Source: Flavobacterium cellulosilyticum (GTDB lineage: Bacteria > Bacteroidota > Bacteroidia > Flavobacteriales > Flavobacteriaceae). Taken from it: a stretch of 64,000 bases of DNA. Below, in pieces: positions 11,753-26,062 of this stretch; position 1 is the stretch's first letter, and each line of letters begins with the position of its first letter. Location: contig NZ_SMFK01000001.1 of assembly GCF_004349355.1 (NCBI RefSeq), positions 124,001 to 188,000 on the forward strand, written 5' to 3'. Both the position numbers and the translations under genes were made by a program. The notes below the pieces were generated by a model, which saw nothing but the letters and a program-made list of their open reading frames with translations, had not been told where the DNA came from and searched no databases.

Positions 11753-11770
11753 TTAATAATTTGCTCATAA

Positions 11771-11811
11771 GCAACTAAGAAAATTAAGTACGTTCTTATT
11801 TTCTTAGTTGC
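11771..11811 (+). terminator. strong stem-loop after maltose phosphorylase
   Basis: A perfect 14-bp inverted repeat (GCAACTAAGAAAAT and its complement) with a 13-nt loop is followed by CTTATTTTTATTT. It fits a rho-independent terminator, or an attenuator separating the cytoplasmic genes from the secreted enzymes downstream. The arm resembles the 'CTAAGAAAxTTAAG' elements seen at 16.1, 18.6 and 19.2 kb. Confidence 0.75.
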
Positions 11812-11857
11812 CTTATTTTTATTTAAAAAGGTTTCTCTGAAATTAATCATTTATCAA

Positions 11858-13690
11858 ATGAAAAAGATAATTTTACTTCTTATCATTACAACTACTACTA
11901 TGTTTGCTCAAATTGAAAAAATAGAACCTCCTTTTTGGTATGCAGGAATGCAAAATCCTGAATTACAAATTATGTTTTACGGAAAAAACATAGCTAAATA
12001 TCAGGTTTCAGTTTCCAATTCGATTACTATACTAAATGTTAAAAGAACTGAAAATTCAAACTATATTTTCATTACAATAAACACTAAAAATGTTACCGCC
12101 ACAGAATTTATTTTTACTTTCAAGGAGAAAAATAAAGTAGTTTTTACTCAATTATATTCTCTAAAAAAACGAAGAGAAAACTCAGCGCAACGACTCAGTT
12201 TTGATGCCTCAGATACGATGTATTTGTTGATGCCAGATCGCTTCTCAAACGGGAATCCCAATAATGACAGTGATGCTTTAATGACTGAAAAATACAATCG
12301 AGAATTGCCAGGTGGAAGACATGGTGGGGACATTCAAGGCATTATCAATCATTTAGATTACATACAGGACTTAGGCGCAACAACTATTTGGAGCACACCG
12401 CTTTGCGAAGATAATGAAGCTGCATATTCCTATCATACTTATGCACAAACAGATGTTTATAAAATTGATCCACGTTATGGGACCAATGACGATTATGCGC
12501 GATTAGCATCTGAAATGCACAAGAGAAAATTGAAATTAGTAATGGATTATGTGACCAATCATTGGGGAAAAGAACATTGGATGATGAAAGATTTACCCAC
12601 TCCAGATTGGATTCATCAGTTTGAAAATTATACTCAAACCAATCATAAAAGAACCGTTATTCACGACACACATGCATCGAAAAGTGACACTAAAATATGT
12701 ATGGAAGGATGGTTTGCTCCTACGATGCCAGATTTGAATCAAAATAATCCGTTAGTATTAAACTATCTTACACAGAATGCAATTTGGTGGATTGAATTCG
12801 CCAATTTAGATGGTTTTAGAGTGGACACCTACAATTATGCTGAACCAAAAGCCATTGCTAAATGGACTAAAGCTATAACGGATGAATACCCTAACTTTAA
12901 TATTGTTGGCGAAATATCGATGCGAAATCAAGCCCAACTTTCGTATTGGCAAAAAGACAGCCCCATTGGAAAAATTCAAAATTTCAATTCCAATTTGCCG
13001 AGTATAATGGATTTTATTCTATCCGATGCTCTTTTGACCATTTTCAATGAAGATGGCAATTGGGAAACAGGAATGATCCGAATCTACGACAATTTAGCCA
13101 ATGATTTTTTGTATCCAAATGTAAATAATTTGCTAATTTTTGCTGAAAATCATGATACACATCGTGTCAATCATGTGTATCTAAATGACATTCAAAAATA
13201 CAAAATGACTATGGCTGTTCTTGCTACAGTTCGAGGAATTCCACAATTGTATTATGGTTCCGAAATTGGAATGACCGGAAACAAAGACAGTGGTGACGCC
13301 TATATCCGACAAGATTTTCCCGGCGGATGGGAAGGCGATACCATTAATGCTTATACTAAAAAAGGCAGAACTGATGGTCAAAACGAATATTTCGATTTTA
13401 CCCGTAAATTATTTAATTGGAGAAAAACAAAATCAGTCGTACATTTTGGAAAAATGACCCATTATATTCCAGAAAACAATACCTATATCTATTTTCGATA
13501 TGATAGCAATGACAGCGTGATGGTTTTATTCAACAACAATAGTGAAACAAAATCTATTGCTACCGATCGTTTTGAAGAAAATTTAAAAAACTATACCATT
13601 GGAAAAGATGTCATTTCTGAAAAAATAATTGATATAACAAAAGATATTATTTTGGAACCAAAATCGGTTTTAATACTCGAATTGAAATAA
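11858..13690 (+). CDS. periplasmic GH13 neopullulanase/cyclomaltodextrinase-type amylase (SusA-like)
   Basis: A 610-residue secreted enzyme. The signal peptide ends near TTTTMFAQ (about residue 18), an N-terminal cyclomaltodextrinase domain covers residues 19-105 and the GH13 barrel follows. The four conserved regions are visible: I DYVTNHWG (230-237), II GFRVDTYNY with nucleophile D323, III IVGEISMR with acid/base E352, and IV FAENHDTHR with H432 and D433. Lack of a lipobox suggests the periplasm. By family it hydrolyses maltooligosaccharides, cyclodextrins or pullulan to maltose or panose. It would act after SusCD import and before the permease. Confidence 0.92.
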   Translation: MKKIILLLIITTTTMFAQIEKIEPPFWYAGMQNPELQIMFYGKNIAKYQVSVSNSITILNVKRTENSNYIFITINTKNVTATEFIFTFKEKNKVVFTQLYSLKKRRENSAQRLSFDASDTMYLLMPDRFSNGNPNNDSDALMTEKYNRELPGGRHGGDIQGIINHLDYIQDLGATTIWSTPLCEDNEAAYSYHTYAQTDVYKIDPRYGTNDDYARLASEMHKRKLKLVMDYVTNHWGKEHWMMKDLPTPDWIHQFENYTQTNHKRTVIHDTHASKSDTKICMEGWFAPTMPDLNQNNPLVLNYLTQNAIWWIEFANLDGFRVDTYNYAEPKAIAKWTKAITDEYPNFNIVGEISMRNQAQLSYWQKDSPIGKIQNFNSNLPSIMDFILSDALLTIFNEDGNWETGMIRIYDNLANDFLYPNVNNLLIFAENHDTHRVNHVYLNDIQKYKMTMAVLATVRGIPQLYYGSEIGMTGNKDSGDAYIRQDFPGGWEGDTINAYTKKGRTDGQNEYFDFTRKLFNWRKTKSVVHFGKMTHYIPENNTYIYFRYDSNDSVMVLFNNNSETKSIATDRFEENLKNYTIGKDVISEKIIDITKDIILEPKSVLILELK

Positions 13691-16122: not shown

Positions 16123-16137
16123 AAAAAAACGTCAAAC

Positions 16138-16183
16138 CATTTAGAAAATTAAGAAATAGATAATGAACCTTAATTCTTTAATG
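16138..16183. repeat. imperfect hairpin of the 'ATTAAGAAAxTTAAG' family
   Basis: CATTTAGAAAATTAAG and CTTAATTCTTTAATG face each other between the GH31 and GH13 genes. The arms resemble the terminal repeats around the GxxExxY gene at 18.7-19.2 kb and the terminator at 11.8 kb. It may be a relic of the same dispersed element family. No T tract adjoins it. Confidence 0.4.
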
Positions 16184-16202
16184 ATATTTTAAAAAAAAAT
16201 CT

Positions 16203-17849: not shown

Positions 17850-17877
17850 ACTAGAAATCAAAGAATTTACACCTATT

Positions 17878-17919
17878 CGCAAAGCTCTCAAAGTAAATTA
17901 ACGCTTTGAGAACTTTGCG
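17878..17919 (+). terminator. terminator closing the starch locus
   Basis: Arms CGCAAAGCTCTCAAAG and CTTTGAGAACTTTGCG pair at 15 of 16 positions around a 10-nt loop, followed by ATTTTTCTTT. It marks the end of the starch operon, with the next gene having its own promoter-like box. Confidence 0.8.
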
Positions 17920-17931
17920 ATTTTTCTTTAA

Positions 17932-17955: not shown

Positions 17956-18642
17956 ATGAATAAAATTCTCAAAATAGCTCACCGTGGCGCTTCTGGTTAC
18001 GAACCTGAGAACACCTTAATTTCCTTTCAAAAAGCAATTGATTTGAAAGCCGATGGCATTGAGCTCGATGTGCATTTAAGTTCAGATGGTGTATTAATTG
18101 TTATGCACGACGAAACCATCGACCGAACCACAAACGGTAGAGGAGAAGTGAACAAAATGTCTCTAAAAGAATTGAAAGCTTTTAAAATTCACAATTCTAA
18201 AGAAATTCCAACTTTAATCGAAGTTTTCGATATGGTCAAACAACACTGTTTTATCAATATTGAACTCAAAGGAATTGGCACTGCGAAACCCGTTATCGAT
18301 TTAATAAGTTTTTATAGTAAAGAAAAAGGTTGGCATCACGATAATTTCCTTATTTCCAGTTTTGATTGGAAAATGTTAGAAGAAACTAGATTGTTAAACC
18401 CGAATATTCGAATTGGTGTTTTGACTGAAGAGTCTATTGAAGAGGCGTTGGCTTTCGCCAAAAAAATAAAAGCCTATTCCATTAATCCCGATTACACATT
18501 GCTAACAAAAGAAAATGTAGCTTTGCAACAAGAAAATGGCTTCCAGGTTTTTCCTTGGACAGTGAACTCTGAAGAAGCAATTTTAAATATAAAATCATTC
18601 AAAGTAAACGGAATCATTTCTAATTTTCCTGATAGGATTTAA
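17956..18642 (+). CDS. glycerophosphodiester phosphodiesterase
   Basis: A 228-residue protein with the GDPD signature. HRGASGYEPENTL (residues 8-20) gives the first catalytic His and the metal-binding Glu, and IELDVHLSSDGVLIVMHD (about 35-52) adds the second Glu/Asp pair and the second His. It has no signal peptide, so a cytoplasmic enzyme that splits glycerophosphodiesters into glycerol 3-phosphate and an alcohol is expected. It stands between two terminator or repeat zones and has no evident operon partner. Functional link to the starch genes is not indicated. Confidence 0.92.
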   Translation: MNKILKIAHRGASGYEPENTLISFQKAIDLKADGIELDVHLSSDGVLIVMHDETIDRTTNGRGEVNKMSLKELKAFKIHNSKEIPTLIEVFDMVKQHCFINIELKGIGTAKPVIDLISFYSKEKGWHHDNFLISSFDWKMLEETRLLNPNIRIGVLTEESIEEALAFAKKIKAYSINPDYTLLTKENVALQQENGFQVFPWTVNSEEAILNIKSFKVNGIISNFPDRI

Positions 18643-18666
18643 TTTTAAACCATTAAGAAAGTTAAG
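18643..18666 (+). repeat. first copy of 24-bp terminal repeat (L1)
   Basis: This 24-bp sequence, containing AAACCATTAAGAAAGTTAAG, is repeated identically at 18741-18764. The similarity continues beyond it: TGTAAATAAT, then ATTG and GACTAAAAAA occur after both copies. So the 5' flank of the GxxExxY gene has been duplicated with a step of 98 bp. Confidence 0.85.
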
Positions 18667-18740
18667 TAAATTAAGTTTTATTGTAAATAATCAGATTGTT
18701 GACTAAAAAAAGTATTTCGAGTTTTTTAAACAACTATTTA

Positions 18741-18764
18741 TTTTAAACCATTAAGAAAGTTAAG
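18741..18764 (+). repeat. left inverted repeat of the GxxExxY cassette (L2)
   Basis: Identical to 18643-18666 and, in inverted orientation, matching 19207-19230 at 23 of 24 positions. The pair encloses the GxxExxY gene at short distance on both sides (24 bp to the start codon, 11 bp after the stop). Confidence 0.85.
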
Positions 18765-18787
18765 TATGAATGTAAATAATTTGATTG

Positions 18788-19195
18788 ATGACTAAAAAAG
18801 AAATAACGCAATTATCTTATGAAATTATTGGATTTGCCATAAAAGTTCACAAAAAACTAGGTCCAGGTTTGTTGGAGAAAATTTATGAAGAATGTTTAAA
18901 ATATGAACTAGAAAAAAACGGGTACAATGTTAAACAACAAATAAATATAGAAATCGATTATTATGATTTAGAACTATCAAATCCATTGAGATTGGATTTA
19001 TTAGTAAATGATTGTATCATCGTCGAGTTGAAAACAGTTGAAAAATTTCACCCAATAGATGAAGCCAAACTATTAACTTACATGAAACTATTAAGTATTC
19101 CGCAAGGATTACTCATCAATTTTAATACTACCAACATATCAAAATCTACCAAACCATTAATAAATGAATATTTTTCCAGACTTGCTGACGATTAA
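18788..19195 (+). CDS. GxxExxY protein (PD-(D/E)XK nuclease-like, function unknown)
   Basis: A 135-residue cytoplasmic protein. The name motif is present as GLLEKIY (residues 27-33 from the ATG at 18788), preceded by AIKVHKKLGPG. Further on it has LRLDLLVNDCIIVELKTVEK, the D-x(n)-E-x-K arrangement of the PD-(D/E)XK nuclease superfamily (Pfam PDDEXK_3), so nuclease chemistry is possible though no role is established for this family. A TTG three bases earlier could also start translation. I prefer ATG. The gene sits between 24-bp inverted repeats and beside a tandem repeat array, as if carried by a small mobile or amplifying element. Confidence 0.88.
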   Translation: MTKKEITQLSYEIIGFAIKVHKKLGPGLLEKIYEECLKYELEKNGYNVKQQINIEIDYYDLELSNPLRLDLLVNDCIIVELKTVEKFHPIDEAKLLTYMKLLSIPQGLLINFNTTNISKSTKPLINEYFSRLADD

Positions 19196-19206
19196 ATTTA
19201 ATAAAC

Positions 19207-19230
19207 CTTAACTCTCTTAATGGTTTAAAA
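19207..19230 (-). repeat. right inverted repeat of the GxxExxY cassette
   Basis: CTTAACTCTCTTAATGGTTT followed by AAAA is the reverse complement of the left repeat with one mismatch in 24. Together with L2 it bounds a segment of 490 bp that contains a single gene. Confidence 0.85.
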
Positions 19231-19297
19231 ATAATTAACGTTTTTGTTACAGTACTCGCAGGCAACCATACTTAACAAATCTAAAGTCACTTAATTG

Positions 19298-19620
19298 TTT
19301 AAAAAATATTTCACAATACTCACACACAACTAAACTTAATTTTTCTTATATTTCTTAATGGTCAAAGAAAAGTAAAACTTAATAAATAGAAACTCTTAAA
19401 GGTTTAAAAAATATTTCAAAATACTCACACACAACTAAACTTAATTTTTCTTATATTTCTTAATGGTCTAAGAAAAGTAAAACTTAATAAATAGAAACTC
19501 TTAAAGGTTTAAAAAATATTTCAAAATACTCACACACAACTAAACTTAATTTTTCTTATATTTCTTAGTGGTTTAAGAAAAGTAAAACTTAATAAATCGA
19601 AACTCCTAAAGGTTTAAAAA
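19298..19620 (+). repeat. three tandem copies of a 105-bp unit plus a partial fourth
   Basis: The 425-bp gap before the flavoprotein gene is largely repeats. TTTAAAAAATATTTCA recurs at 19298, 19403 and 19508, and CACACACAACTAAACTTAAT at 19321, 19426 and 19531, an exact 105-bp step with few substitutions. The array stops at TTTAAAAA followed by the ATG of the next gene, so the fourth copy starts where the gene starts. Each unit carries TTTCTTAATGGTC and CTTAAAGGTTTAAAAA, which resemble the right inverted repeat. A more diverged copy may occupy 19220-19297. Spacing is too large and spacers absent for CRISPR. Confidence 0.93.
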
Positions 19621-21580: not shown

Positions 21581-24500
21581 ATGAAAAAAAATTACTTGTT
21601 AATCGCTATATTTTTAAACCTATTTACTCTCTATTCATTTGCCAATAGTTTAAAAAATAAAAATAACACAAATGATTTAAAAGAAGCATTTATTATTCAT
21701 TTGATTTCACCTATTTCATTATTAAATAATAATTCAAATGCTTTTTTAACAAATACTTTAGCCTCAACAGTAATTGCTTGCGAAGGCGACAACATAACAC
21801 TGATCGCAAATCCAAGCGGAGGAGTTGCTCCATACACATCCTTTAGTTGGACTGGTCCAAATGGTTTTGTTTCAACTGCCGAAAATCCAATTATAAATAA
21901 CATCAAAGAAGCTGATGCTGGAGATTACATTGTAACTTATACCGATGCTGCTGCTTCAACTTTTCAGAATACCATATCTGTTATCGTAACGAAAAAAATT
22001 ATTCCAACTTTTGATGCAACTGTATTTGCAATCTGTAATGGTGGTTTTGCTCCAATTTTATCAACAACATCAACAAATGGAATTAAAGGGTCTTGGAGTC
22101 CTTCAGTGGTAAGTAATACTGCAACAAACACCTATATTTTCACACCTGATGCCGGTCAATGTGCTAATAATTTTTCATTAACCATTTATGTCATTAATAA
22201 TGTTACCCCTACTTTCACATTACCAAAATCAATTTGTTCAAACAACACCCCTCCACTATTATTAAATATTTCTAACAATGGTATCGTTGGGACTTGGAGT
22301 CCAAGCACCGTAAGCAATACAAATTCAGGAAGTTATATATTTACACCTTCATTAGGACAATGTGCATTACCTACTACACTACAAATAATTGTAAACCCTT
22401 TATCGGCCATTTTTTTACCAGCAATCCCACCAATATGTTCTGGCGAAGTTTTAGCCCCTTTGCCGACTACTTCGAATAATGGTGTTACCGGAACTTGGTC
22501 GCCTGCAATAAACAATACAGCAACTACAACTTATACGTTTACGCCAACACCTGGACAATGTACTACTACTCCAACAACAATGACTATTGTAGTTAATCCT
22601 ACTATGCCAACTTTTACACAAGTGGCCCCAATATGTTCTGGTGAAGTTTTAGCTCCTTTGCCAACTACTTCGAATAATGGTGTTACCGGAACTTGGTCGC
22701 CTGCAATGAATAATACAGCAACAACAACTTATACTTTTACACCAACTACAGGACAATGTGCTACTAGTCCATCTACAATGACAATTGTCGTAAATCCGAT
22801 TGTGGCAACTTTCACGCAAGTGGCTCCAATATGTTCTGGCGAAGTTTTAGCCCCTTTGCCGACTTCTTCGAATAATGGTGTTACCGGAACTTGGTCGCCT
22901 GCAATAAACAATACAGCAACTACAACTTATACGTTTACGCCAACACCTGGACAATGTACTACTACTCCAACAACAATGACTATTGTAGTTAATCCTACTA
23001 TGCCAACTTTTACACAAGTGGCCCCAATATGTTCTGGTGAAGTTTTAGCTCCTTTGCCAACTACTTCGAATAATGGTGTTACCGGAACTTGGTCGCCTGC
23101 AATGAATAATACAGCAACAACAACCTATACTTTTACACCAACTACAGGACAATGTGCCACTAGTCCAGCTTCAATGACAATTGTCGTAAATCCGATTGTG
23201 GCAACTTTCACGCAAGTGGCTCCAATATGTTCTGGTGAAGCTTTAGCTCCTTTGCCTACTACTTCGAATAATGGTGTTACAGGAACTTGGTCGCCTGCAA
23301 TAAACAATACAGCATCTACAACTTATACGTTTACGCCAACACCTGGACAATGTACTACTACTCCAACAACAATGACTATTGTAGTAAATCCTACTATGCC
23401 AACTTTTACACAAGTGGCTCCAATATGTTCTGGTCAAGCTTTAGCTTCTTTGTCTACTACTTCGAATAATGGTGTTACCGGAACTTGGTCGCCTGCAATG
23501 AATAATACGGCTACAACCACTTATACTTTTACACCAACTACAGGACAATGTGCCACTAGTCCATCTACAATGACAATTGTCGTGAACCCATTAGTGGCAA
23601 CTTTCACGCAAGTGGCTCCAATATGTTCCGGTGAAGCTTTAGCTCCTTTGCCTACTACTTCGAATAATAATGTTACTGGAACTTGGTCGCCTGCTCTGAA
23701 TAATACGGCAACAACAACCTATACTTTTACACCAAATACAGGACAATGCACTACTAGTCCATCTACAATGACAATTGTCGTGAACCCATTAGTGGCAACT
23801 TTCACGCAAGTGGCACCAAAATGTTCTGGTGAAGCTTTAGCTCCTTTGCCTACTACTTCGAATAATGGTGTTACCGGAACTTGGTCACCTGCTCTGAATA
23901 ATACGGCAACAACAACCTATACTTTTACACCAAATACAGGACAATGCACTATTAGTCCGGCTACAATGACTATTGTAGTAAATTCGATTATGGCAACTTT
24001 CACGCAAGTGGCTCCAATATGTTCTGGTCAAGCTTTAGCTCCTTTGCCTACTACTTCGAATAATGGTGTTACCGGAACTTGGTCGCCTGCAATGAATAAT
24101 ACAGCAACAACAACTTATACTTTTACACCAACTACAGGACAATGTGCAACTAGTCCAGCTTCAATGACAATTGTCGTAAATCCGATTGTGGCAACTTTCA
24201 CGCAAGTGGCCCCAATATGTTCTGGTGAAGTTATAGCTGTTTTGCCTACTACTTCGAATAATGGTGTTACTGGAAATTGGTCACCTGCAATGAATAAGAC
24301 GGCTACAACAACTTATACTTTTACACCAACTACAGGACAATGTACCACTACTCCAGCTACAATGACAATTGTCGTGAATCAAAAAGTAACACCCACTTTT
24401 AATTCAATTGCATCAATTTGTTCAGGAGAAACTTTAGCTCCTTTGCCTACTACTTCGAATAATGGTGTTACTGGAATTTGGTCGCCTGCAATGAATAATA

Positions 24501-26062
24501 CAGCAACTACAACGTATACTTTTACACCAACTACAGGACAATGCACCACCACTCCTTCTACAATGACTATTGTCGTAAATCAAAAAGCAACTCCAACTTT
24601 TAATTCAGTTGGGCCAATTTGTTCAGGTGATACATTAGCTCCTTTGCCAACAACTTCGAATAATGCAATTACAGGAACTTGGTCACCAGTAATTAATAAT
24701 ACAGCAACAACAACTTATACTTTTACACCAACTACTGGTATCTGCGCAACAACAACTGTATTAACAGTAACTGTAAACCCAAATATTGTTCCGACTTTTA
24801 ATGCTATTCCAGATGTTTGTTATGAATCTGTAGCACCTAGTTTACCTACAATTTCGACTAATGGAATTACAGGAACTTGGAGTCCAACGATTGTAAGCAA
24901 TATAACTTCAGCTTCTTATACATTCATTCCTACTGCTGGCATTTGTGCAAGGAAAGCATCATTAAGTATAAACGTCAATACAATAGTACCCGTTTTCAAT
25001 ATCGTTCCTTCAATTTGCATCAACGGTACAGCTCCATTATTACCTAGTACTTCAACAAATGGAATTACTGGAACTTGGAGTCCTTCTATTATTAGCAACA
25101 CAGTTTCTGGAAATTATACCTTTACTCCTAATGCTAACCAATGTGCTACAACAACAGCTTTAACTATTACAGTTAAACCAATTCTTACTTCAAATTTTAC
25201 AGCTATTTCTCCAATTTGTTCGGGTGCAACAAGGCCATCATTACCTCTTGTATCAACAAATGGAGTTACAGGAACTTGGAACCCAGCAGTTGTAAATAAT
25301 CTGGCATCTGGAATTTATACATTTACACCAGCTCCAAACGAATGCGCTATTGGCACTACAATGAATGTTACAGTTATTCCAAATGCAATTCCGACATTCA
25401 CTCAAATTGCCCCAATTTGTTCTAATACTGCTTTAGAATCATTATCAACTACATCAATTAATGGCATAACTGGAACATGGTCGCCTGCTATGAATAATAC
25501 TACTACAACCACTTATACATTTACACCAACAACTGGTCAATGCGCAATTACAACTACAATGAGCATTATTGTTAATCAATCTCCAACAGCATTCACTATT
25601 AAAACTACAGATGTGGTTAATGGCAGGCCAGATGGAATTATTGAAATAAGCAATCCCTTAAATGGCTTAGCTCCTTTTCAGTACAGTGTTAACAATAGTT
25701 CATTTACTACAAATCCTTCGTTTACAAATCTAGCTCCAGGTGATTATACCATCACAATAAAAGATTCAAATAATTGTGAGTACAAAAAAGGAGCGATAAT
25801 TAACACTATGTGCTTATTCCCAAATGTCATTACTCCAAATAATGATTCTTACAACAATACGTTTAACCTTAGTGGTTGCGAGGTTGAAAGACTTCAGTTG
25901 TTTAATAGATACGGAAGAGAAGTTAATAGTTACACTAATTATACTAGTCAATGGGATGGAGCCAATAATAAAGGAGAACGTCTCCCTGATGGAACCTATT
26001 TTTATGTAGCCGAAATAAAAGGCGGCAAATCAAAAGTAGGTTGGGTATTTATATCTCGATAA
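21581..26062 (+). CDS. large secreted repeat protein with gliding-motility-type (T9SS type B) C-terminal domain
   Basis: A 1493-residue secreted protein. After a signal peptide (about 1-22) comes an Ig/PKD-like domain (about 65-135), then 18 repeats of about 66 residues whose consensus contains ICSGEVLAPLPTTSNNGVTG, TWSPAMNNTATTTYTFTP and GQC. Each has two cysteines, probably one disulphide. A SprB-like domain (NGRPDGIIEI...GDYTITIKDSNNCEY) precedes the last 85 residues (FPNVITPNNDSYNNTF to GWVFISR), the type IX secretion C-terminal domain found in gliding proteins. An adhesin or gliding-associated surface role is inferred. The Thr/Asn/Pro-rich composition differs from its neighbours. It has its own terminator. 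Confidence 0.92.
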   Translation: MKKNYLLIAIFLNLFTLYSFANSLKNKNNTNDLKEAFIIHLISPISLLNNNSNAFLTNTLASTVIACEGDNITLIANPSGGVAPYTSFSWTGPNGFVSTAENPIINNIKEADAGDYIVTYTDAAASTFQNTISVIVTKKIIPTFDATVFAICNGGFAPILSTTSTNGIKGSWSPSVVSNTATNTYIFTPDAGQCANNFSLTIYVINNVTPTFTLPKSICSNNTPPLLLNISNNGIVGTWSPSTVSNTNSGSYIFTPSLGQCALPTTLQIIVNPLSAIFLPAIPPICSGEVLAPLPTTSNNGVTGTWSPAINNTATTTYTFTPTPGQCTTTPTTMTIVVNPTMPTFTQVAPICSGEVLAPLPTTSNNGVTGTWSPAMNNTATTTYTFTPTTGQCATSPSTMTIVVNPIVATFTQVAPICSGEVLAPLPTSSNNGVTGTWSPAINNTATTTYTFTPTPGQCTTTPTTMTIVVNPTMPTFTQVAPICSGEVLAPLPTTSNNGVTGTWSPAMNNTATTTYTFTPTTGQCATSPASMTIVVNPIVATFTQVAPICSGEALAPLPTTSNNGVTGTWSPAINNTASTTYTFTPTPGQCTTTPTTMTIVVNPTMPTFTQVAPICSGQALASLSTTSNNGVTGTWSPAMNNTATTTYTFTPTTGQCATSPSTMTIVVNPLVATFTQVAPICSGEALAPLPTTSNNNVTGTWSPALNNTATTTYTFTPNTGQCTTSPSTMTIVVNPLVATFTQVAPKCSGEALAPLPTTSNNGVTGTWSPALNNTATTTYTFTPNTGQCTISPATMTIVVNSIMATFTQVAPICSGQALAPLPTTSNNGVTGTWSPAMNNTATTTYTFTPTTGQCATSPASMTIVVNPIVATFTQVAPICSGEVIAVLPTTSNNGVTGNWSPAMNKTATTTYTFTPTTGQCTTTPATMTIVVNQKVTPTFNSIASICSGETLAPLPTTSNNGVTGIWSPAMNNTATTTYTFTPTTGQCTTTPSTMTIVVNQKATPTFNSVGPICSGDTLAPLPTTSNNAITGTWSPVINNTATTTYTFTPTTGICATTTVLTVTVNPNIVPTFNAIPDVCYESVAPSLPTISTNGITGTWSPTIVSNITSASYTFIPTAGICARKASLSINVNTIVPVFNIVPSICINGTAPLLPSTSTNGITGTWSPSIISNTVSGNYTFTPNANQCATTTALTITVKPILTSNFTAISPICSGATRPSLPLVSTNGVTGTWNPAVVNNLASGIYTFTPAPNECAIGTTMNVTVIPNAIPTFTQIAPICSNTALESLSTTSINGITGTWSPAMNNTTTTTYTFTPTTGQCAITTTMSIIVNQSPTAFTIKTTDVVNGRPDGIIEISNPLNGLAPFQYSVNNSSFTTNPSFTNLAPGDYTITIKDSNNCEYKKGAIINTMCLFPNVITPNNDSYNNTFNLSGCEVERLQLFNRYGREVNSYTNYTSQWDGANNKGERLPDGTYFYVAEIKGGKSKVGWVFISR
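22000..25580 (+). repeat. 198-bp tandem repeat array within the adhesin gene
   Basis: Eighteen units of about 198 bp. Units 4-14 (about 22400-24590) are near-identical at DNA level, while the outer ones are diverged. In units 4-9 two unit types alternate (MPTFTQ...AINN...PTPGQCTTTPTT and VATFTQ...AMNN...PTTGQCATSP), giving a 396-bp higher-order period. Confidence 0.95.

Follow-up and report, generated by a model that had tools for sequence, protein, structure and literature searches.

REPIN/RAYT systems consist of short extragenic words, often arranged as inverted doublets and present in many copies per genome. Each word type has one divergent enzyme gene, located among its own repeats; enzyme and word co-vary, the repeats far outnumber the gene, and repeat clusters are inserted in or next to others (accessible parts of PMC3116915 and PMC8266576). 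Palindromic REP carries a GTAG or CGTC tag (PMC3733652, accessible part). Rpn/YhgA-like proteins (PF04754) are PD-(D/E)XK nucleases with several copies per genome and a suggested horizontal spread, according to the accessible text of PMC5350276, which describes little, if any, sequence specificity for RpnA. MITEs are small gene-free inverted-repeat elements between genes. The ends of the Porphyromonas BrickBuilt MITE resemble IS5-family elements, and GxxExxY is unmentioned in the accessible part of that article (PMC4596501). The GxxExxY family itself is named in PMC9756366 and PMC12085832 and mentioned in passing in PMC8934634, as far as the accessible parts go. No account of a GxxExxY-word system was found in a literature search whose scope excluded most subscription papers and bioRxiv preprints.

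The window analysed here is a stretch of 64,000 nucleotides from Flavobacterium cellulosilyticum, in which a GxxExxY gene lies between inverted arms (Table 1). The earlier note had compared this locus with RAYT/REP, and the population pattern fits, with dispersed words tied to the gene. Of the REPIN/RAYT traits, the extragenic words in many copies, the divergent enzyme gene among its own repeats, the co-variation, the excess of repeats over genes and the inserted repeat clusters recur; inverted doublets recur in part. The enzyme differs, a PD-(D/E)XK nuclease with PF13366 as sole Pfam match in place of a HUH/Y1 tyrosine transposase. Instead of a palindrome, each arm is made of 2-4 word units in direct orientation, which the commonest class spaces in helical phase. 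Degenerate letters hardly agree between paired arms, whereas compensatory hairpin changes are reported to be common in REPINs (PMC3116915, accessible part). Given the other enzyme superfamily and the non-palindromic arms, the system would work like REPIN/RAYT without being a member. Its gene-free elements resemble MITEs; unlike in IS MITEs, the cassette carries no transposase, the associated gene encodes a nuclease, and the ends are word arrays. Rpn proteins share the fold class and the copy pattern but form a different family. The best explanation is a system that appears new, REPIN/RAYT-like and built on an unrelated nuclease, with putative mobility, cleavage and binding.

Table 1. Features of the GxxExxY locus and of related gene-free pairs (positions in the window).
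Feature	Position	Strand	Remarks
GxxExxY PD-(D/E)XK nuclease gene	18788..19195	+	135 aa; PF13366 and TIGR04256 matches
Left arm, outer copy	18639..18668	+	CCATTAAG-AAAG-TTAAG word array; 24 bp identical to inner copy
Left arm, inner copy	18737..18766	+	includes the 24-bp repeat 18741-18764
Right arm	19207..19235	-	inverted relative to left arm; 23/24 with 18741-18764
Three 105-bp tandem copies with right-arm-like words	19290..19622		copies 2 and 3 are 97% and 93% identical to copy 1
Block from last GDPD codon to start of HI0933-like gene	18640..19620		the same two genes overlap as ATGA in ten relatives
Gene-free inverted word pair, AACTAAG-AAAATTAAG	11767..11816		arms 11767-11788/11798-11816, score 30
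Gene-free inverted pair, decayed, CCATTTAG-AAAATTAAG / CATTAAAGAATTAAG	16135..16188		arms 16135-16153/16169-16188, by eye; below the score limit of 28 used for window pairs
Gene-free pair, different word CGCAAAG-CTCTCAAAG	17877..17920		arms 17877-17893/17904-17920, score 29

The earlier note had described 24-bp inverted repeats around the gene, and 18741-18764 matches 19207-19230 at 23 of 24 positions. The second left copy claimed 98 bp upstream is present and identical (18643-18666), and the reported amplification of right-end-like sequence downstream corresponds to the three 105-bp tandem copies. The 24-bp unit stood as a repeat but not as the full extent of the arm, which is an array of short CATTAAG-type words with a 4-nt gap (CCATTAAG-NNNN-TTAAG); alignment of the outer left arm extends over about 46 bp. 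The left end is partly duplicated in tandem, as shown by the 84% match of 18751-18799 to 18662-18710. An alternative start of the gene is the TTG at 18785. Arms were scored by the best local alignment of the upstream flank with the reverse complement of the downstream flank. The window locus scores 51, and none of the 495 neighbouring genes examined in related loci scores as much as 50. The genome encodes six family members, and an inverted pair is visible by eye at each, every one with a different word, e.g. AAACACAAAAGACACAAAAG (L002), GCCGCAGATTCGCTGATT (L005), ACCACAAATTACACGAATTTTCACAAATT (L006) and AACCATTAAGAAAGTTAAG (window). Five of the six score at least 30, and L001 scores 27. The arms at 11.8 and 16.1 kb, suspected to be non-coding relatives, were both identified as inverted pairs without a gene. 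The pair at 17877-17920 may be a plain terminator. Farther downstream, the window encodes a 1493-aa repetitive protein (21581-26062) with twelve DNA repeats of 198-201 bp, which resemble the reference copy at 63-99%.

The assignment of the protein to the GxxExxY PD-(D/E)XK family is confirmed by TIGR04256 (137.2 bits, curated cut-off 35, E 3.1e-40) and PF13366 PDDEXK_3 (129.4 bits, cut-off 22, E 1.1e-37); Rpn PF04754 gave no match up to E 0.001 in the Pfam search. The residues E30, D70, E80 and K82 are invariant in 25 diverse homologues and in 62 aligned members and are, from the fold class, the predicted catalytic residues. An AF2 model of the window protein (62 sequences) reached a pLDDT of 91.5. 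The nearest solved fold to this model is Cas4 SSO0001 (4ic1; Foldseek E 3.4e-4, Z 9.1, 3.9 A over 102 residues), the single chain above Z 8. Archaeal Hjc resolvases follow at Z 6-7, restriction enzymes and others in the range of Z 5-8; these lower matches may reflect a common arrangement only. A relative by sequence was not found among solved structures, Cas4 and Hjc included (PDB sequence search, best E 0.6). Cas4 proteins are marked by conserved iron-sulphur cysteines and cas neighbours. A PADLOC Cas4b match to a relative of the window protein was weak (E 0.0015).

At the window site, dN/dS of the GxxExxY gene amounts to 0.017-0.038 (six comparisons, four species). The neighbours at the same site yield 0.13-0.21 (GDPD) and 0.05-0.06 (HI0933), with synonymous distances alike. 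The gene is thus intact and under strong purifying selection, and the codon comparison suggests a host function beyond selfish spread. GxxExxY copies within one genome are divergent, with a median identity of 43% over 96 pairs, a set that includes two pairs with a repeated locus; the enzyme gene therefore appears to stay while the words multiply, as with RAYTs. A local duplication was observed at L086 (G005:C24), two GxxExxY genes 1.5 kb apart with 86% identity. A domesticated DNA-binding nuclease with a role in chromosomal housekeeping (repair, recombination, layout) would agree with a dN/dS below that of both neighbouring genes, with the divergence of copies within a genome and with the processing and repair nucleases among the nearest folds. 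The arrays would then be working sites, multiplied by ordinary duplication, and nothing would be mobile.

The family is present in 50 of 61 Flavobacterium genomes, with 0 to 9 copies each, and in 42 of the 52 genomes of good completeness; some of the 11 genomes without a match are incomplete. The genus set, best-scoring or hand-picked loci among the matches listed, comprised 100 gene matches, less three that lie at contig ends; L018 and L037 duplicate own loci and were unused. Among the resulting 97 genes with flanks, one is counted twice (L035 is the second gene of L086), and L038 and L041 stem from the neighbour-gene search. A score of at least 40 is reached by 49 and of at least 50 by 24 of these genes. 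The earlier note had proposed a check of whether GxxExxY genes are generally repeat-bounded; they are, with 76 of the 97 at 30 or above compared with 18 of 495 other genes of the same loci, of which 5 reach 40 and none 50. In a second control of 8904 mismatched flank pairs, with homologous flanks excluded, 4.3%, 0.9% and 0.2% reach 30, 40 and 50. The 21 loci below 30 count against the mobile-unit reading: some share word cores only, and L034 and L029 have nothing clear.

Named genomes hold at least 574 relatives. The best 80 of these originate mostly from other Bacteroidota, with single Ignavibacteria, Chlorobiota, Methylobacter and Treponema MAGs, and IMG/VR contributed five further loci. After removal of 6 of 85 loci at contig ends, 47 of the 79 loci beyond the genus (74 named, 5 IMG/VR) reach 30, 42 of them named. 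The corresponding control of 12% is explained by words shared between distant members. A score of 50 is reached by 13 of the 79 (10 named), compared with 0.3% in the control. Seven plasmid loci, from eight records listed, were examined. Pairs are present in Gemmatirosa (score 113), Bacteroides (45), Bernardetia (36) and Sphingomonas (33); the Treponema, Fusobacteria and Prevotella loci yielded no pair above 24 (scores 22-24). The IMG/VR locus L207, on a contig classed as viral, has a GxxExxY gene with CACAAAG-type arms (score 47). The unit statistics exclude L208-L211, also from IMG/VR, whose flanks match in a different way; L208 and L209 are near-copies.

The arms are arrays of 2-4 short words. 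In 172 loci, CRCNRAG units number 2.1 per locus upstream on the plus strand and 2.3 downstream on the minus strand, compared with 0.09 expected from the remainder of the same loci. The opposite orientations hold 0.56 and 0.39 per locus. On the same strand, CRCNRAG units are most often 10, 21 or 31 bp apart; distances of 8-9 bp are less frequent. Judged by this spacing, the class is in helical phase, with one unit per turn. Four units in both arms were found in 41 loci, at a score that no shuffled flank attained; their commonest spacing is 10, 11, 10 bp (left 22 of 41, right 31 of 41). The core letters of left and right arms in these loci agree at 0.90-0.96, the same as between different elements. 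Identity at the degenerate letter (offset 3) is 0.59 within and 0.59 between elements; spacer letters yield 0.46/0.37, 0.59/0.55 and 0.44/0.42, respectively. Offsets 1 and 4 are higher within an element (0.61/0.51 and 0.73/0.51), an excess that a clade-specific word would give. A hairpin would need paired degenerate and spacer letters, which is hardly observed, so a reading of double-stranded units is favoured. For gene-bearing elements of this one word class, the nuclease probably reads double-stranded units on one helix face. The hairpin suggested as nuclease substrate in the earlier note is doubtful, and hairpin recognition is disfavoured in these 41 gene-bearing loci, since the paired arms share mainly core letters.

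Words and spacings differ by clade on a tree of 176 proteins. Clade words are CATTAAG or CATATAAG, CGCAAAG at 8 bp and CGCAGATT at 9 bp, further CCACAAATT, CCACAGATTAAAAGATT and CACAGAG in four units. Arm class, with four classes assigned by regular expressions and doubtful labels for L092 (TAAG) and for L134, L142, L166, L186 and L201 (AAG8), changes 13 times on the protein tree, compared with a shuffled mean of 51.7 and a minimum of 42 (n=105). When each shared-neighbour cluster was reduced to a single locus (five draws of 36-38 loci), the tree required 8-9 changes, against shuffled means of 16.5-18.8 (0 of 1000 shuffles in each draw). Some named loci repeat genus genomes, e.g. L130 and L031, and this test should remove them. 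A Mantel test with site-sharing pairs removed gave r 0.28 (0 of 1000) for the 109 of 176 loci that score at least 33, four viral loci being left out; 105 loci were labelled for the class test. Ranked by similarity, the arm of the nearest protein relative stands at a median percentile of 0.13, a signal of modest strength. A gene inherited together with its flanks could produce this co-phylogeny without recognition, and dispersed copies therefore weigh more. Only these copies and the 1-bp spacing match bear on an action in trans; part of this evidence could instead reflect copies descended from the arms at the genes.

The 61 genomes were searched for five word patterns, each against a reversed-pattern control; the first pattern yielded 737 summed matches compared with 93 for its reversal. 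Total word matches correlate with gene copies (Spearman 0.70; 0.51 after removal of genome size). The median is 4 matches (0-32) in the 11 gene-less genomes and 45 (2-411) in the 50 gene-positive ones. The repeats are thus not general terminators independent of GxxExxY; terminators of that sort were one of the outcomes that the earlier note had named as fatal to its proposal. An explanation by terminators only was rejected, the words being scarce without the gene, clade-specific and helically spaced. Exceptions are G044 (32 matches) and G010 (10), both without the gene, and some gene-positive genomes with 2 or 3 matches. High CCRCRRATT loads occur in G042 (205), G008 (181), G015 (131) and G006 (94), for which no member of the matching clade was among those fetched.

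For four of four words, matches are more numerous in genomes with a member of the matching clade than in the other gene-positive ones (P 6e-4, 4e-3, 1e-5 and 5e-4). These P values ignore shared ancestry, the clades were picked by eye on a tree displaying the arms, the counts include gene-borne arms, and the clade members are those fetched, a part of the family. In the window's own genome, 32 of 32 CATTAAG arm matches have the 4-nt gap, three of them at the window gene. Five genomes with 3-nt gaps in their own gene arms (L075, L084, L097, L080, L036) show the 4-nt gap in 7 of 209 matches.

Word copies without the gene, for which the earlier note had recommended a search, do occur, partly as inverted pairs. 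In 1.02 Mb away from the genes, 60 word matches were found, one of them inside an ORF of at least 150 aa; such ORFs fill 81% of this sequence. Close neighbours of the same class are convergent in 10 cases (+-), tandem in 5 (3 ++, 2 --) and divergent (-+) in none. With a convergent pair defined by a same-class partner within 160 bp under strict patterns, 20 of the 60 gene-free matches belong to such pairs; the remainder are single or have a partner that misfits the strict patterns. In a sample, gene-free arms are 23-154 bp apart. A 150-bp gene-free element with CACATAG inverted ends (L101, about 11825-11973) has six further matches of 85-90% in G042 (BLAST), which indicates copying of whole elements and not chance birth of words. 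The CACATAG word also flanks the GxxExxY genes of L107 and L121. Word matches at steps of about 100-140 bp were observed at G000:C23:294613-295004, G000:C12:195878-196095 and G052:C96:249370-250505. These steps suggest tandem amplification like that of the 105-bp triplet in the window.

Non-autonomous repeats might also be moved by an unrelated host transposase, with GxxExxY as a passenger or repressor between two copies. Words far outnumber genes in many genomes, and an inverted pair encloses the gene, the position expected of a captured gene. This origin is improbable, since word class and spacing track the GxxExxY clade, word load tracks gene copy number, and other phyla too have the same gene family between such words.

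The GDPD neighbour of the window gene was matched in 203 genus genomes; the best 30 of these 203 neighbourhoods were located, and 27 junctions were read. The cassette fills the GDPD/HI0933 junction in four species: L037 (the own copy), L038, L041 and L047. L045 retains the remnant of a deleted cassette. In ten species the junction is empty; GDPD and the HI0933-like gene overlap by ATGA, with nothing between them. Empty sites, sought at the suggestion of the earlier note, thus exist as presence and absence of the cassette at one exact junction, between species. Six relatives (L050, L053, L055, L057, L060, L062) carry gene-free repeats with other words at the same junction. A palindrome of the type CTTTGTCAAAG...CTTTGACAAAG was observed there in the cassette-less L048, L058, L060, L062 and L066. 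The junction looks like an insertion hot spot.

A target duplication, also sought, was found in part. In L038 and L041, ATATGA precedes the left arm and ATGAAC follows the right arm, which places ATGA on both sides; the window's own copy lacks this arrangement. A different left side, with GDPD running to a stop at or inside the arm, is present in the own copy, L047 and L045. For L047, the ATGA reading covers the left side only, as its sequence piece ends before the right neighbour. A duplication of ATGA in two of four filled species is suggestive; codon needs could keep ATGA as well. On a tree of the two neighbour genes, filled and empty species interleave, e.g. L041 with L039 (support 94/82), with an unsupported placement of L047. 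The interleaving implies that the cassette was gained, or exactly lost, several times at this one junction; exchange by recombination in the flanks could likewise yield the pattern.

Gene-free pairs vary at junctions in a similar manner. At another syntenic spacer, word pairs are present in G042, G006, G015, G008, G004 and G005, with one pair nested within another in G042 and G015. The same spacer measures 4, 8 and 11 bp in G003, G017 and G010 and holds another gene in G007 and G019; G002, G013 and G014 are poorly readable at this place. The next spacer has word pairs, some decayed, in G042, G006, G015, G008 and G004. It measures 1 and 7 bp in G010 and G017, holds another gene in G005 and G007, and comprises 74 bp (G003) and 42 bp (G019) without a word pair. 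The neighbourhood of L100 was considered as a second insertion site of the cassette and discarded as not clean, the gene-less L213 and L215 carrying other repeats and a terminator. Their intergenic region contains a palindromic repeat GTCATTTCGAC...GTCGAAATGAC of about 100 bp with an unrelated word design.

Homologous recombination between species, mediated by the flanks, might account for presence and absence, with arms that are mainly terminators of small genes. Filled and empty alleles share conserved flanking genes and are swappable, some pairs lie near gene ends, and the gene-less relatives at the L100 site have a terminator. This explanation is very improbable; it leaves the clade-specific words, the gene-tied dispersal, the helical spacing and the orientation of close gene-free neighbours unexplained. 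Still less credible is an Rpn-type nuclease that acts in homing or against phages, whose repeats would mark or protect self DNA. The PD-(D/E)XK fold is compatible with it, and a Rpn member is an endonuclease promoting RecA-independent recombination (PMC5350276, accessible part). PADLOC returned no family up to E 1 for the window protein, and a phage collection no match for the one family member searched. Homing, also considered in the earlier note, is disfavoured, since the word is located on the element and is absent from the ten empty overlap sites, and members occupy many unrelated sites.

The housekeeping nuclease introduced above gains from the dispersed copies, two thirds of the gene-free matches having no detectable convergent partner. 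It is nonetheless unlikely. The gene is patchily distributed, although some of the 11 genus genomes without a match are incomplete; cassette and pairs are present or absent at exact syntenic junctions; copies of the 150-bp element lie at several places of one genome; and a word pair is nested inside another.

The preferred reading, to which a probability of about two in three is assigned, is that GxxExxY genes and their flanking word arrays form one genetic unit of a dispersed-element system. Comparison among genomes establishes the association, the inverted orientation, the phase, the co-variation of word and spacing, the gene-tied dispersal and the exact presence and absence. The PD-(D/E)XK nuclease would recognise its own short word, repeated in arrays, on double-stranded DNA; in CRCNRAG arrays, it would read one unit per helical turn on a single helix face. 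Two inverted arrays would delimit the mobile or copied segment, rarely a gene-bearing cassette and mostly a gene-free stretch. The nuclease would bind both arrays and nick or cut at the ends (e.g. by staggered cuts), and host repair would copy or paste the segment elsewhere. Gene-free stretches between genes would be dispersed or maintained in trans by the resident nuclease. Joint diversification of nuclease and word would account for the clade differences in letters and spacing. The protein presumably binds its word and cuts, and cutting presumably drives movement. A wider claim has slightly better than even odds: GxxExxY proteins would be the engines of an undescribed type of prokaryotic mobile DNA, with arrays of 7-bp words in helical phase, gene-free pairs spread in trans, clade-specific words and members in several phyla.

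If this is true, a widespread nuclease family annotated by motif alone would obtain a role. The CACAAAG, CACAGAG and CCACAGATT-type intergenic repeats of Flavobacterium, and those around the genes in other phyla, would obtain an origin. The system would do the work of REPIN/RAYT systems by a second and unrelated route, and the family would represent a natural series of nucleases with diversified DNA specificity. The paired nucleases and word arrays would offer a testbed for DNA recognition, for copying and for the long-term co-existence of host and repeats.
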